Below, piece by piece: positions 2,058 through 10,693 of a stretch of DNA of 64,000 nt. The notes under the pieces are model-generated. The model saw only the letters and a list, made by a program, of their open reading frames with translations. It had not been told where the DNA came from and ran no database searches. This DNA comes from Pusillibacter faecalis (GTDB taxonomy: Bacteria; Bacillota; Clostridia; Oscillospirales; Oscillospiraceae). The stretch's first letter is position 1, and the number at the start of each line of letters is the position of its first letter. The stretch spans positions 2,790,001 to 2,854,000 of the forward strand of contig NZ_AP023420.1 of assembly GCF_018408705.1 (NCBI RefSeq), given 5' to 3'. The translations under genes were made by a program, and so were the position numbers.

Positions 2058-2516
2058 TCACAAGCTTGGCACGCCGCCCTCTACTGTCGGCTGAGCCGTG
2101 ATGATAATATGGACACCGAGTCCAACAGCATCCAAAATCAGAAGAAATTACTGCAAAAGGTAGCGCGGGAAAAAGGCTATACGGACACCTTGTTTTTCGT
2201 GGACGATGGCATTACCGGCACCACCATGAAGCGGCCCGGATTTCAGAAAATGCTGACCGCAATCGAGGCCGGGTACATATCGGCTGTATTTGTCAAAGAC
2301 CTCTCCCGGTTGGGCCGCAACTACATAGAGGTCGGCAAGCTGACAGAGGAATTTTTCTCGCAGTACGATGTGCGCTTGGTTGCCGTTTCCGATGGTGTGG
2401 ATAGTGATGAGGGCGAGGATGATTTCACCCCGTTCAAGAACATTATGAATAATTTGTTTTGCTTTTCAACGATGCTTACCAACATCCCATGCAACGGCGC
2501 ACCATACAGCATTTAG
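2041..2516 (+). pseudogene. N-terminal part of the transposon's large serine recombinase, frameshifted and interrupted
   Basis: The frame from 2058 encodes [10 protein letters not shown], holding the catalytic Ser of serine recombinases, then the resolvase-type domain with SIQNQKKLL and [18 protein letters not shown]. It runs to FKNIMN at 2450, where the inserted element begins; the next codons up to the stop at 2516 belong to the insert. The C-terminal part resumes at 9398. There is a second fault: a strong ribosome site (GGAAGGAGG, 2028-2036) precedes TTG at 2041, but that frame differs by one base from the catalytic frame, and the first in-frame ATG (2109) lies after the catalytic Ser. A one-base loss near 2064 would explain it, or a sequencing error. 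Confidence 0.8.
2448..2473. other. Left attachment junction of the nested element
   Basis: AAT (2448-2450) is followed by AA and then the arm from 2453 to 2473, which starts TTTGT and includes TGC and TTTCAACG. It mirrors the right arm. In the joined circle the arms would sit around an 8-bp centre, ACCAATAA, whose middle dinucleotide is AA inside the shared AAT. Confidence 0.75.
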
Positions 2517-2532
2517 AGCTAAAATAATTAAG

Positions 2533-2565
2533 GGTCAAGTCCTTAACCATTTAAGGCACTTGACC
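2533..2565. repeat. Hairpin at the left end of the nested element
   Basis: GGTCAAGT-CCTTAA pairs with TTAAGG-C-ACTTGACC, 14 bp with a single bulged C and a 4-base loop. It stands directly before a terminator hairpin. Possible roles are termination of readthrough from the host gene or a protein site. Confidence 0.6.
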
Positions 2566-2568
2566 TGA

Positions 2569-2627
2569 AAAGAAAACACCTGTAACAATCTCGCTACGAG
2601 AGCGGCTGTTACAGGCGTTTTCTTTTT
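2569..2627 (+). terminator. Terminator at the left end of the nested element
   Basis: Arms AAGAAAAC-A-CCTGTAACA (2570-2587) and TGTTACAGG-C-GTTTTCTT (2607-2624) followed by TTTTT. It would stop host transcription entering the element, or element transcripts leaving leftward, since A-rich sequence precedes the 5' arm. Confidence 0.7.
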
Positions 2628-2696
2628 GGGGGTGTAGTTTGTTGCCCGTTGTATTGCAAATGCGAGAGAACGCACGAGAGTAGGCAAGAGCGGCAA

Positions 2697-3404
2697 CTAT
2701 GAGGACAGGTAATAGTTATCTGCATTATCTAGCTTACTCATTAACTGGCGGATTTTGTGCCGTCCCCATACTTTAATGCCTAGTTGCCTTGCTTCGCTTT
2801 CCGCTTGTGCTGTAAGTGTGCTTGTAGTGATAATCACCGCTATATCACACTCATAAATTGCCTTCCCCTTGTAGGTCTGACCTATGGCAACAGCATCTAC
2901 CTTTGTGCTATTCCAGCGTTTGCATTGAAAACCCCAGTTTATATCATCTTTTTGTGCTGTAATATCTATGCCGTGGTCGCCAGAGGCGGAAGTAACCTGT
3001 ATATTGTCCCACCCATTAACACGGAGTAGGTCGGCGCAAAAATGCTCGAAATCTACACCGCTCATTTTATCTATAAAGATAATTGTGCAAGAAGGTAAAT
3101 TTAAATCATTTTCATAATCGTTCCCATCATCCTCTTCGCTCTCACCATATATTCCCAATCGCTCTTTCAGGTGAATAAACCACTCACGATTATTCAGCCT
3201 AAAAATCCATTTAACAAGAAACCACAGCCCTTTGAAGAAGAAATAGTAAAAGGCAACGCAAAGTAGTAACAAATCTTTTATGCAGTAGTAGATGATGACA
3301 AGTAGCTGAAAACAATGCCTATTAAATCCTCGATAACTATTCTTGTGCAAATAAAAAGGCAATCGTTCTGTCCAGTCCATCTCAATAATTTTAAGCAACT
3401 TCAT
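2697..3404 (-). CDS. Membrane-anchored Mrr-like restriction endonuclease
   Basis: 235 residues. Residues 30-70 contain long hydrophobic stretches (LLVIIYYCIKDLLLL, then VAFYYFFFKGLWFLVKWIF), probably two membrane spans. The C-terminal 120 residues form an Mrr-type nuclease fold: the start MSGVDFEHFCADLL, GDHGIDI with the catalytic Asp, then WGFQCKRW with the Gln-x-Lys of the active site, and VIITTSTLTAQAESEARQLG. Mrr-like domains cut DNA, often modified DNA. The ribosome site AGAGGTG lies just before the ATG. It is the leftmost gene of the nested element and may be cargo for defence or competition with other DNA; the substrate is unknown. Confidence 0.7.
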   Translation of the reverse strand: MKLLKIIEMDWTERLPFYLHKNSYRGFNRHCFQLLVIIYYCIKDLLLLCVAFYYFFFKGLWFLVKWIFRLNNREWFIHLKERLGIYGESEEDDGNDYENDLNLPSCTIIFIDKMSGVDFEHFCADLLRVNGWDNIQVTSASGDHGIDITAQKDDINWGFQCKRWNSTKVDAVAIGQTYKGKAIYECDIAVIITTSTLTAQAESEARQLGIKVWGRHKIRQLMSKLDNADNYYLSS

Positions 3405-3565
3405 AGTACACCTCTTTTGCTATATGGGCAAAATGATCCAAAAAATATCTTGCGTAATGGTGTAGTTTAATAGCCAATCCCCTTCAGGCCAAATAGATTA
3501 TGAAACCTTACGCTGGGTCTGATATTTCAAATACCTGTGTTTTTCAACCAGTCTATCGACTTCCT

Positions 3566-8498: not shown

Positions 8499-8681
8499 GC
8501 TTGACCCTCCATATTTCATATACTGTTGCAAAATATAATTACCGTCCCTGTTCTATAAACCCTTTATTATTACATTACAATTCAGTCCCCAAAATCAACC
8601 GCTCCCAAAGCACCTTATATACCATATTTGAAGTGTTTTTCTTAAAAGTTCCCCAAACGAAGAAGCGTACAATTTTGCACC

Positions 8682-9170
8682 TTAGACCCTGCGCAAAATT
8701 GTACTCTGCTCCTCTATATATTCAGTTACTTGCTTCACACGCTCCACTGTCTTTAAATGCTGCTTGCTATATCGGCAATCTGGGGTATGCTTTCTCATGC
8801 TCTGAATAATATGTTCCGCACAACTACTCGCACCGTACCCGTTGACCAAAATATGCAGGTGCGGTGCGACAGTAGTGTTTGGCGCTAACTTTTTGATTTC
8901 ACCCGTGTTTGGGTCTTTCCTCCATATTTTCTGTTGACAAATAAATTGTTTTTTGCCGCCCTTATTTTTTGGTTTGTTATAGCTCATTTTGCCGACGTAC
9001 TCTGAGCTGGTAACAGACAAGCCAAGGATAATATTGATACTTTCTCCTTGTTTTTTCTTCCAACGCATACAGACCGCCCGAAGCCTGTTTAGTTCTCGTT
9101 CTCCATCCTCCATACCTCCAAATTTGCGGGGGTCATTGAGAAAATAGGCTGTATTTACTTTCTCTCGCAT
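8682..9170 (-). CDS. HUH-motif protein, possibly a replication initiator or relaxase-like endonuclease
   Basis: 162 residues. It contains APHLHILVNGYGASS, the His-hydrophobic-His motif in the context usual for HUH endonucleases, and near the C-terminus TEYIEEQS, a possible catalytic Tyr as in Y1 enzymes. The segment INIILGLSVTSSEYVGKMSY could be the preceding beta strand. The ribosome site GGCGGGGA is close to the ATG and a promoter lies at 9197-9225. HUH proteins nick DNA to start rolling-circle replication or transfer. The assignment rests on two short motifs, so it is tentative. Confidence 0.5.
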   Translation of the reverse strand: MREKVNTAYFLNDPRKFGGMEDGERELNRLRAVCMRWKKKQGESINIILGLSVTSSEYVGKMSYNKPKNKGGKKQFICQQKIWRKDPNTGEIKKLAPNTTVAPHLHILVNGYGASSCAEHIIQSMRKHTPDCRYSKQHLKTVERVKQVTEYIEEQSTILRRV

Positions 9171-9196
9171 AATATCCCCGCCTTACTTATAGCTAT

Positions 9197-9225
9197 ATTA
9201 TATAGTCCTTTTGTTGCGCCGTAAA
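9197..9225 (-). promoter_or_regulatory. Promoter of the HUH-motif gene
   Basis: On the minus strand, TTTACG (-35), a 17-base spacer and TATAAT (-10), about 25 bases before the ATG at 9170. It probably drives the leftward genes from 9170 onward. Confidence 0.55.
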
Positions 9226-9318
9226 CTTATATTGCGCTGTTTTCATAAAGTTCTACACCCAATAGGTTCTTTCCTTAGAAAAAACTTTGTCCCATTTTAG
9301 CTACTTTGCACAAAATAA

Positions 9319-9344
9319 AATTGAGCCACAAAAGAGGCTCAATT
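9319..9344. terminator. Hairpin near the right end of the nested element
   Basis: AATTGAGCC (9319-9327) and GGCTCAATT (9336-9344) form a 9-bp stem with an 8-base loop. Read leftward it is followed by TTTTATTTTG, so it could terminate transcription on the minus strand. Confidence 0.45.
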
Positions 9345-9361
9345 AGCTGTGCTATTAACCA

Positions 9362-10693
9362 TTGATATATACCGTTGAAATGCAGTACAAAACCAATGAG
9401 TACTACGCCAAGGACATCTCCAAGAAGCGCCGGATCGTCAACAAAATGAAAGGCAACGCCGGGATTCCGCTTTCGCCGCCGCCCTACGGCTACATGAAAA
9501 ACCCGGACGATCCCCGGTTTTGGGTGATTGACCCGGAGGCTGCCGAGGTGGTGCGCTGCATCTACCGTCTGGCCTTGGAGGGCAACGGCCCCTTGCAGAT
9601 TGCTACGGCGCTGGGGACGATGGGGGCGCTGAACCCCTCGGCCTATCGAACCAGCAAGGGGATTAGCAAGGGCGGCTCCAAAAGCACGCTGGAGCCTACC
9701 AAGTGGAACCACACCACCGTCAAAAAAATCCTCACCTTGCAGGAATACTGCGGCGATGTGATCAACTTCAAAAGCTACTCCAAGTCCTACAAGATGAAGC
9801 GCCGGATTGAAAACCCGGAAGAAAACCGGGCCATCTTCCTCAATGTCCATGAGCCCATCATTGACCGGGCTACTTGGGAAAAGGTGCAGGCTTTGCAGAA
9901 AGGCACACGGCGCAAAAAGCCGACTGTTACCCAAGAGCCGAGTGTGTTTTCCGGGCGACTGAAATGCCCCGAGTGCGGCGGCAACCTCAACTTCCATTTC
10001 AACCAGAAAAACCACGACATTAAATTCTTTAGCTGTCAAAACCATAATTCTGGTTTGTGGAAATGTTCAGCGACACACTATATCCGTCTGGATTTTCTGG
10101 AACAGGTGGTGCTGTATGAGGTTAACCGCTTGGCGGCCTTTGCCAATGAGTATGAAAGGGATTTTGTAAAAGCCATGCTGGGCCGTTCCGCAAAGGTTGC
10201 TGAAAATGACCGGGCACGGAAACAGCGGGAACTGAATGCTCTGCTGACCCGTGACAAGGAACTGGATATGCTCTTTGAAAGGCTGTACGAAGACAATGTA
10301 GCGGGTAAAATTGACGATGCCCGGTTTGCCAGGATGTCAAAGCGGTATGAGCAGGAGCAGGGCGAAATCGGTGCAAAGGTCAAGGCTCTGCGGCTGGAAC
10401 TGAAAAAGGCCGAAGGACAGCAGATGGATATGGAGGATTTTCTGGCAACGGTGCGACGGTACGCCTATGTGTCAAAGATCACCCGGCGCATGGTGTCCGA
10501 GCTCATTGACCACATTGATGTGTACCACGCCGAAAAACAGGACGGCGTGACCAATCAGCAGGTGGTCATCCACTACAACTGCATCGGGGCCTTTGAAGTG
10601 CCAGACCGCAAGAAGATTCCCGAGGCTGACATCATCATGGAAACGAGAAAAGGCGTAGCTGTCAGCTACGCCCCGGCACAGATTGCAGTATGA
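9362..10693 (+). pseudogene. C-terminal part of the transposon's large serine recombinase
   Basis: Host sequence starts at 9398 (EYYAKDISKKRRIVNKMKGN); the 12 codons before it come from the nested element. The recombinase domain follows (PPYGYMKNPDDPRFWVIDPE, then EAAEVVRCIYRL), next a zinc ribbon (CPECGG ... CQNHNSGLWKC) and a coiled coil with a DUF4368-like end. No catalytic Ser is present, so this fragment alone cannot recombine DNA. Joined to the part at 2058-2450 it gives a typical TnpX/Tn4451-type enzyme of about 580 residues. It is the last gene of the conjugative transposon. Confidence 0.85.
9371..9397. other. Right attachment junction of the nested element
   Basis: The arm 9371-9391, read on the minus strand, starts TTTGT and includes TGC and TTTCAACG. 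It matches the left arm at 17 of 21 positions, differing at arm positions 6, 7, 11 and 20. AAT (9395-9397) then joins the host codon GAG. Confidence 0.75.

Follow-up and report, generated by a model that had tools for sequence, protein, structure and literature searches.

A small mobile element inside the large serine recombinase gene of another element in Pusillibacter faecalis, at a codon also interrupted by a second element family

The split recombinase gene and its insert

The window analysed here is a 64,000-nucleotide stretch of the 3.4-Mb genome of Pusillibacter faecalis (G000:C1:2790001-2854000; genomes and loci are given G and L numbers). It contains a DUF4368/TnpX-type large serine recombinase (LSR) gene that belongs to a carrier element and is split at one Asn codon by 6,947 bp of other DNA. 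The N-terminal half (2109..2450, plus strand), recognised by PF00239 and by homologues, ends in FKNIMN and is the in-frame part of a gene whose frame is broken further upstream. The C-terminal half (9395..10693, plus strand) starts with NEYYAK, has homologues, and carries the Recombinase, zinc-ribbon and DUF4368 domains, the last with an E-value of 1.2e-21 (PF14287). The inserted element (2451..9397, no strand assigned) can equivalently be placed at 2448-9394 because the triplet AAT is common to both of its ends. It is delimited by the abutment of the two halves in uninterrupted homologues and by its GC content, which is 42.1% compared with 49.6% and 53.2% in the carrier flanks.

Each half was aligned separately against 14 loci of other genomes (L014-L027). 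In 12 of these, the matches of the two halves are consecutive and overlap by one Asn codon; of the other two, L022 holds the later part of the gene only and L026 the C-terminal half only. The C-terminal half is 79-86% identical in the five closest whole matches. AAT is the only sequence shared by both insert ends and the empty site, and is very short, as in LSR elements; therefore, the ends are known exactly, apart from the placement of that triplet. An initial annotation, made from the sequence alone, had proposed that this DNA interrupts the LSR of another element at FKNIMN/EYYAK with exact ends. The abutting halves and the dyad at the ends described below confirm this proposal. The possibility that the recombinase normally contains the inserted DNA was also checked, and the homologues were found to be uninterrupted, with halves that abut at the same codon.

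The same annotation stated that no codon is lost. At the junction itself this is correct; closer to its start, however, the gene has another frame break. Comparison with L034, L036, and L037 places the break between the start and the catalytic-serine motif YCRLS, at 2058-2108, before the in-frame ATG (2109). It could be a real mutation or a sequencing error. With a break in that position, the carrier LSR would probably not be revived by excision alone, and if the break is real, loss of the insert would not give back a working carrier integrase. The view that the insert silences its carrier while keeping it revivable by clean excision is weakened accordingly. The right end of the insert (9380-9397) supplies an ATG in frame with the C-terminal half of its target, five codons before the junction.

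The attP sites of LSRs are imperfect dyads about the crossover. When the insert ends are joined, as in a circle junction, 17 of 25 positions are complementary about an axis that separates the two A's of AAT. This axis is the best of 16 tried at the junction, and its value is equalled at one of 6,890 axes within the insert. The end comparison gives AAT copies at 2448..2450 and 9395..9397 (both plus strand), and the position of the axis predicts AA (2448-2449) as the crossover dinucleotide. Terminal inverted repeats of 30 nt, which are the predicted attP half-sites, lie at 2453..2482 and 9362..9391 (both plus strand) and are 73% complementary to each other. The pair is not unique, as one other pair in the 7.1 kb is equally long and good; by another measure, the score of the end pair was attained by 11 of 20,000 random pairs. 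The end dyad exceeds chance and is of the kind that an LSR attP would have. Just inside the left end, a 20-nt inverted repeat (2568-2626; 95% complementary, 19-nt loop) resembles a terminator, and its right arm finishes in a T-rich run.

Genes of the insert lie on the minus strand, with the single exception of 5876..6370. The insert encodes its own LSR (3566..5161, minus strand), as the initial annotation had noted: a 531-amino-acid open frame with an intact catalytic N-terminus and the Resolvase, Recombinase, and zinc-ribbon domains, which matches the phrog_95 integrase family at 3.4e-83 and has no DUF4368 match. The start of this gene is overlapped by the gene of a small serine recombinase of the resolvase/invertase type (5148..5726, minus strand; PF00239, 1.5e-45, and HTH_7). 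A protein with the Mrr-type restriction-endonuclease fold (2697..3404, minus strand; PF04471, 1.7e-24, with PADLOC Mrr-like matches) is a passenger and possibly a defence gene. The single plus-strand gene (5876..6370) encodes a regulator that appears by its N-terminus to be of the ribbon-helix-helix type; the YlcI/YnfO N-terminal model is just over the cut-off, and the HicB and Arc-like matches are weak.

The remaining genes, all on the minus strand, include a conserved block. It comprises a 55-amino-acid protein (6837..7004), a terminase-small-subunit-like (TerS-like) helix-turn-helix protein (6994..7386; phrog_2538 and phrog_51), and two uncharacterised proteins (7443..7805, and the 241-residue product of 7806..8531). 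Relatives of four insert genes, partly decayed, lie at a contig start in G237 (L033:641-1691). There, the TerS-like protein is 70% identical, the 55-residue protein beside it 64%, and the product of 7443..7805 36%; the 241-residue protein has a partial relative in the same genome. A comparison of the TerS-like protein with 50,697 phage records gave 22 matches. Streptococcus accounts for 21 of these, and every one of the 20 listed is a satellite phage, with 27-33% identity. The Pfam Terminase_2 match of the protein is below the cut-off, and a packaging role is putative. Among the same phage records, no match was found for the 162-residue protein described next or for the 241- and 55-residue proteins, nor for the insert LSR at 1e-40.

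The 162-amino-acid protein (8682..9170, minus strand) is a predicted HUH endonuclease, either a replication initiator or a nickase. It has 64 relatives at 0.001 in a large protein set. An alignment of the window protein with 37 of the 64 has 16 invariant columns, including H104 and H106 (H-x-H) and Y151, the combination characteristic of HUH endonucleases. The structure model built from this alignment has a pLDDT of 88.8. Its fold matches are weak and include SIRV1 ORF119 and an IS200 transposase, both of which are HUH proteins; unrelated ferredoxin-like chains score equally. In six cases, the longest contigs that contain relatives of the TerS-like and 162-residue proteins are of equal size (12248, 15006, 7718, 20039, 6700, and 8497), which suggests that the two proteins travel together. 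One TerS-like cluster at 99% identity represents 252 contigs, the longest of which equals in length the contig that holds the window, so at least this protein is common. Profile scans of the insert proteins gave no match to a relaxase family; the predicted HUH protein might nick. With a predicted HUH nickase and a TerS-like protein closest to those of streptococcal satellite phages, the insert does not plainly appear to be an integrative and mobilizable element (IME).

A second element family at the same codon

A different element, family B, was first met when 400 family genomes were searched with the C-terminal half of the carrier LSR, 54 of which had a match at 1e-90. Several of the C-terminal halves found had no N-terminal half and started at the same codon as that of the carrier. 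Nine such right-junction sites in seven genomes have one common upstream end, different from that of the insert. At three left-junction sites, all of them LSR loci, the N-terminal half ends at the same codon and is followed by a common left end. The family B ends are perfect 13-bp inverted repeats in G740, and 11 of the 13 positions agree in L102. At L102 (G284, contig 108), both junctions lie on one contig and enclose 5,796 bp, which encode TnpV (PF14198, 8.3e-33), an extracytoplasmic-function-type sigma factor, and, at the right end, a 541-amino-acid DUF4368 LSR (PF14287, 3e-17). TnpV together with a DUF4368 LSR is Tn4451/Tn6104-like. No mobilisation gene was recognised by eye in the open reading frame (ORF) list of this locus, no profile scan aimed at such genes having been made. 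Intact LSRs of other loci match both halves of the L102 target with the same abutment; this target is also truncated upstream.

The family B LSR is 24% identical to the insert LSR and the ends of the two elements differ, so family B is a separate lineage. Its presence at the same codon in other genomes strengthens the initial reading of an element nested in an LSR gene. Loci with a C-terminal half only, such as L028, had been considered as deletions within the LSR gene; this was rejected because the same upstream end stands before different LSRs and because L102 has both junctions. L103 was dropped as a locus with an N-terminal half only, since it continues intact in the direction of the contig end.

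A pattern built from only the right end of family B was then used, in order to search independently of the target. One set searched consisted of the 54 genomes in which close LSR homologues occur, among them the seven from which family B was previously known. It gave 14 matches in 8 genomes, of which 13 abut an LSR C-terminal half at the Asn codon and one (L116) does not. Nine of the 14 were previously known; of the other five, four (L111, L112, L113, and L114) lie in LSR genes. The 13 LSR targets share 26-95% mutual identity over up to 120 residues and are therefore mostly different genes. No family B LSR lies in the 0.5-1.5 kb upstream that was examined at L110, L112, and L116, so these may be other elements that share the end.

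Among 255 order genomes not chosen for LSRs, the pattern matched nine times, one match being previously known. Three of the eight new matches abut an LSR at the Asn codon (L122, L124, and L125), and another three have a family B LSR upstream and a different flank (L119, L120, and L121). The last two (L118 and L123) have no family B LSR upstream, look like chance, and were rejected as family B ends. The control of the pattern gave one match in 255 genomes, and a narrower pattern that required the LSR codon had matches in 2 of 200 genomes. The counts from the two genome sets indicate that family B prefers this Asn codon, though not exclusively. An in-frame ATG, here seven codons before the junction, is also found at the family B copies L058, L059, L060, L108, and L114 and is absent from the other copies. 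The family B LSR gene itself (L102:842-2467, and L104) reads Asn-Asp-Leu at the homologous site, where the 16 LSR targets seen read Asn-Glu; this is possibly a way to avoid self-insertion.

Conservation was compared over a 123-nt region of 47 distinct intact LSR genes (from 80 sites, with repeats removed). Within it, the 30 nt of the Asn-codon site are the best conserved, which may explain why different integrases settle there. A site list drawn with a pattern was not used as a conservation measure; that pattern required AAY GAR, two of its sites were repeated, and L024 and L025 were missed. Matches to the N-terminal half amount to 2 to 34 per genome in six genomes. Interruption of the same codon by a second, different family makes integrase genes likely landing sites for small mobile elements.

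Integration, target choice, and rival explanations

These findings are best read, with a probability of about 0.82, as a non-autonomous mobile element that was integrated by its own LSR through attP x attB recombination at the conserved Asn codon. Integration by an LSR is well supported; we infer that the insert's own enzyme was the agent. This estimate is unaffected by how the family B counts divide into known and new sites because it rests on the insert itself. In the proposed mechanism, the LSR encoded at 3566-5161 would recombine attP with an attB at the Asn codon of the carrier LSR, with AA as the central dinucleotide. LSR genes could serve as attB because this stretch is well conserved in DNA, often multicopy in a genome, dispensable to the cell, and itself mobile. 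An element that lands there would find sites in many strains and ride with their carriers. The circular form may be replicated by the predicted HUH protein and may spread by conjugation or with a helper phage in the manner of a satellite, a route suggested by the TerS-like gene. Insertion would disable the carrier integrase; since that gene is damaged elsewhere too, the insert is here probably a lodger in a wreck more than a switch.

A broader reading is tentative and, on balance, doubtful. It states that at least two integrase lineages of small elements land in the integrase genes of other elements, jam them, ride with them, and return mobility by clean excision.

Several observations weigh against integration targeted to LSR genes. 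A search for the insert LSR at 1e-60 among 300 family and 394 order genomes (overlapping sets) found it in its own genome only, no second nested copy of the insert family was found, and a single nested copy is thus known. Recurrence of the target therefore rests on family B and not on the insert family. The initial annotation had proposed to look for the same element in other recombinases; no such copy appeared, and what was found instead was the same codon interrupted by family B. The nearest outside relative of the insert LSR is a truncated gene (L009; 72% identical over 428 residues), and no carrier-type LSR is present in the 17 kb examined near it. Likewise, no LSR lies beside the four-gene block of G237 in the 14 kb read. 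The insert LSR gene ends 1.1 kb from the nearer insert end, with the passenger gene between. Family B also lands outside this codon (L116, L119, L120, and L121), and the majority of its LSR sites initially came to light through the inspection of LSR genes.

Some of these points would fit an integrative element of the ordinary kind, with relaxed choice of target, that reached an LSR gene once by chance, family B coinciding with it merely through a conserved A/T-centred motif. The single nested copy and the family B sites outside LSR genes agree with this explanation, as does the description of LSRs of the TndX/DUF4368-rich clade as multi-targeting in PMC10083194. However, the insert LSR has no match to DUF4368, a domain which that paper places mostly in the multi-targeting clade, and two families with different ends have struck one and the same codon out of the roughly 570 in the gene. 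Relaxed targeting is therefore considered unlikely. A scar of recombination among tandem LSR genes, with no insertion at all, is very improbable. Tandem and fused LSR arrays do exist: L029 (G074:C7:1030001-1050000) has several tandem LSR genes and an 863-amino-acid open frame that fuses two of them. However, both halves in the window are collinear with one LSR, and the DNA between them (7 kb) has a lower GC content, an integrase gene of its own, and a terminal dyad. L102 shows the same arrangement for family B, and the uninterrupted homologues largely refute a scar.

The insert could also be a regulatory switch like the comK prophages, which would excise upon induction of the carrier, restore the integrase, and let the carrier move. 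The junction preserves the frame, and IMEs inside genes of integrative and conjugative elements (ICEs) have been proposed to excise when conjugation is induced (PMC5357655). In contrast, the carrier LSR has its other frame break before the catalytic-serine motif, the L102 target is likewise cut short upstream, and the carrier ORFs scanned (see below) include no conjugation genes. A role as a switch of carrier mobility is thus not well supported and less likely in this genome given the second break; this explanation ranks as improbable, below relaxed targeting and above a scar.

The nested arrangement has partial parallels in the literature. In streptococci, serine-integrase IMEs interrupt traG, maff2, and snf2 of Tn5252-type ICEs (PMC5357655, PMC5704250). 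Like the insert, these IMEs are small and site-specific, use a serine integrase, disrupt a conserved gene of another mobile element, and have a short shared end sequence. Unlike them, the insert targets the carrier's own integrase gene and has no canonical relaxase match, and its carrier differs from the Tn5252-type hosts in the lack of conjugation genes among the ORFs scanned. Tn6104-Tn6106 are nested in the conjugative transposon Tn6103 of C. difficile, and Tn4451/Tn6104-type mobilizable transposons have TnpX and TnpV (PMC3158075). Family B likewise has TnpV and a DUF4368 LSR, neither TnpV nor DUF4368 was found in the insert, and the Tn6104-type target ORFs (1743 and 1776) are not stated to be recombinase genes in the portion of that paper at hand. 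In S. suis, an erm(B) element occupies the serine integrase gene of an IME, a position comparable to that of the insert (PMC7168690). The erm(B) element differs in its size of 1.7 kb and in that its excision was not detected, and the text consulted mentions no preference for integrase genes. The streptococcal phage satellites Javan147 and Javan343 (8.2 and 9.1 kb) are of similar size, have their own integrase, and encode a TerS-like protein that is about 32% identical. Only this protein matches, and the insert uses an LSR and a predicted HUH protein.

Nesting in conserved ICE genes is already described in PMC5357655 and PMC5704250; no report of an integrase gene as a recurrent site-specific target was found in the literature searched, which included part of PMC9765467 and left most subscription journals outside. 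Recurrent landing inside integrase genes would be a step beyond nesting in transfer genes because here the guest inactivates the integrase on which the movement of its host element depends. If true, it would give a simple explanation of why integrase genes are broken and elements stacked in these genomes. It would also provide a conserved candidate attB, offered in many copies by LSR-rich genomes, and suggests two new integrase/attB pairs. The question further bears on conflict between mobile elements, in which such guests may be parasites, lodgers in wrecks, or switches.

The carrier element

A tRNA-Pro gene (10762..10837, minus strand) lies just beyond the carrier LSR. A tRNA-Pro gene is found in the same position in L034-L037, so it is the carrier's likely landing site. 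About 12 kb before the carrier LSR, an LSR end of the same family is present in decayed form (L011:9672-10369; G000:C1:2779672-2780369), which suggests stacked elements through tandem accretion at tRNA-Pro. The carrier scan covered the 10 ORFs between this left LSR remnant, the presumed left end, and the carrier LSR. They encode a MerR regulator, a GNAT acetyltransferase, two MsbA-like ABC exporters, an AIPR protein, a PadR regulator, a DUF2992 protein, a sigma-70 region 4-like protein (1252..1674, plus strand; PF08281, 2.2e-4, below the cut-off), a protein with a weak TnpW match (1827..2057, plus strand; PF14202, E-value 0.042, below the cut-off), and one protein without a match. Among the matches listed, both exporters score far under the cut-offs of the resistance models.

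No relaxase or type IV secretion system protein was found among these 10 ORFs, which does not support the initial description of the carrier as a conjugative transposon; it looks like a tRNA-Pro-anchored remnant. Among related LSR neighbourhoods, L035 has a MobA-type relaxase and a TraG-type ATPase, and L036 has a relaxase. The palindrome TTTGGGACAA-N-TTGTCCCAAA, with variants, occurs at four places between carrier genes (window 1153-1177 and 1723-1747; L012:590-613 and 1322-1349) and is possibly an operator or a terminator.

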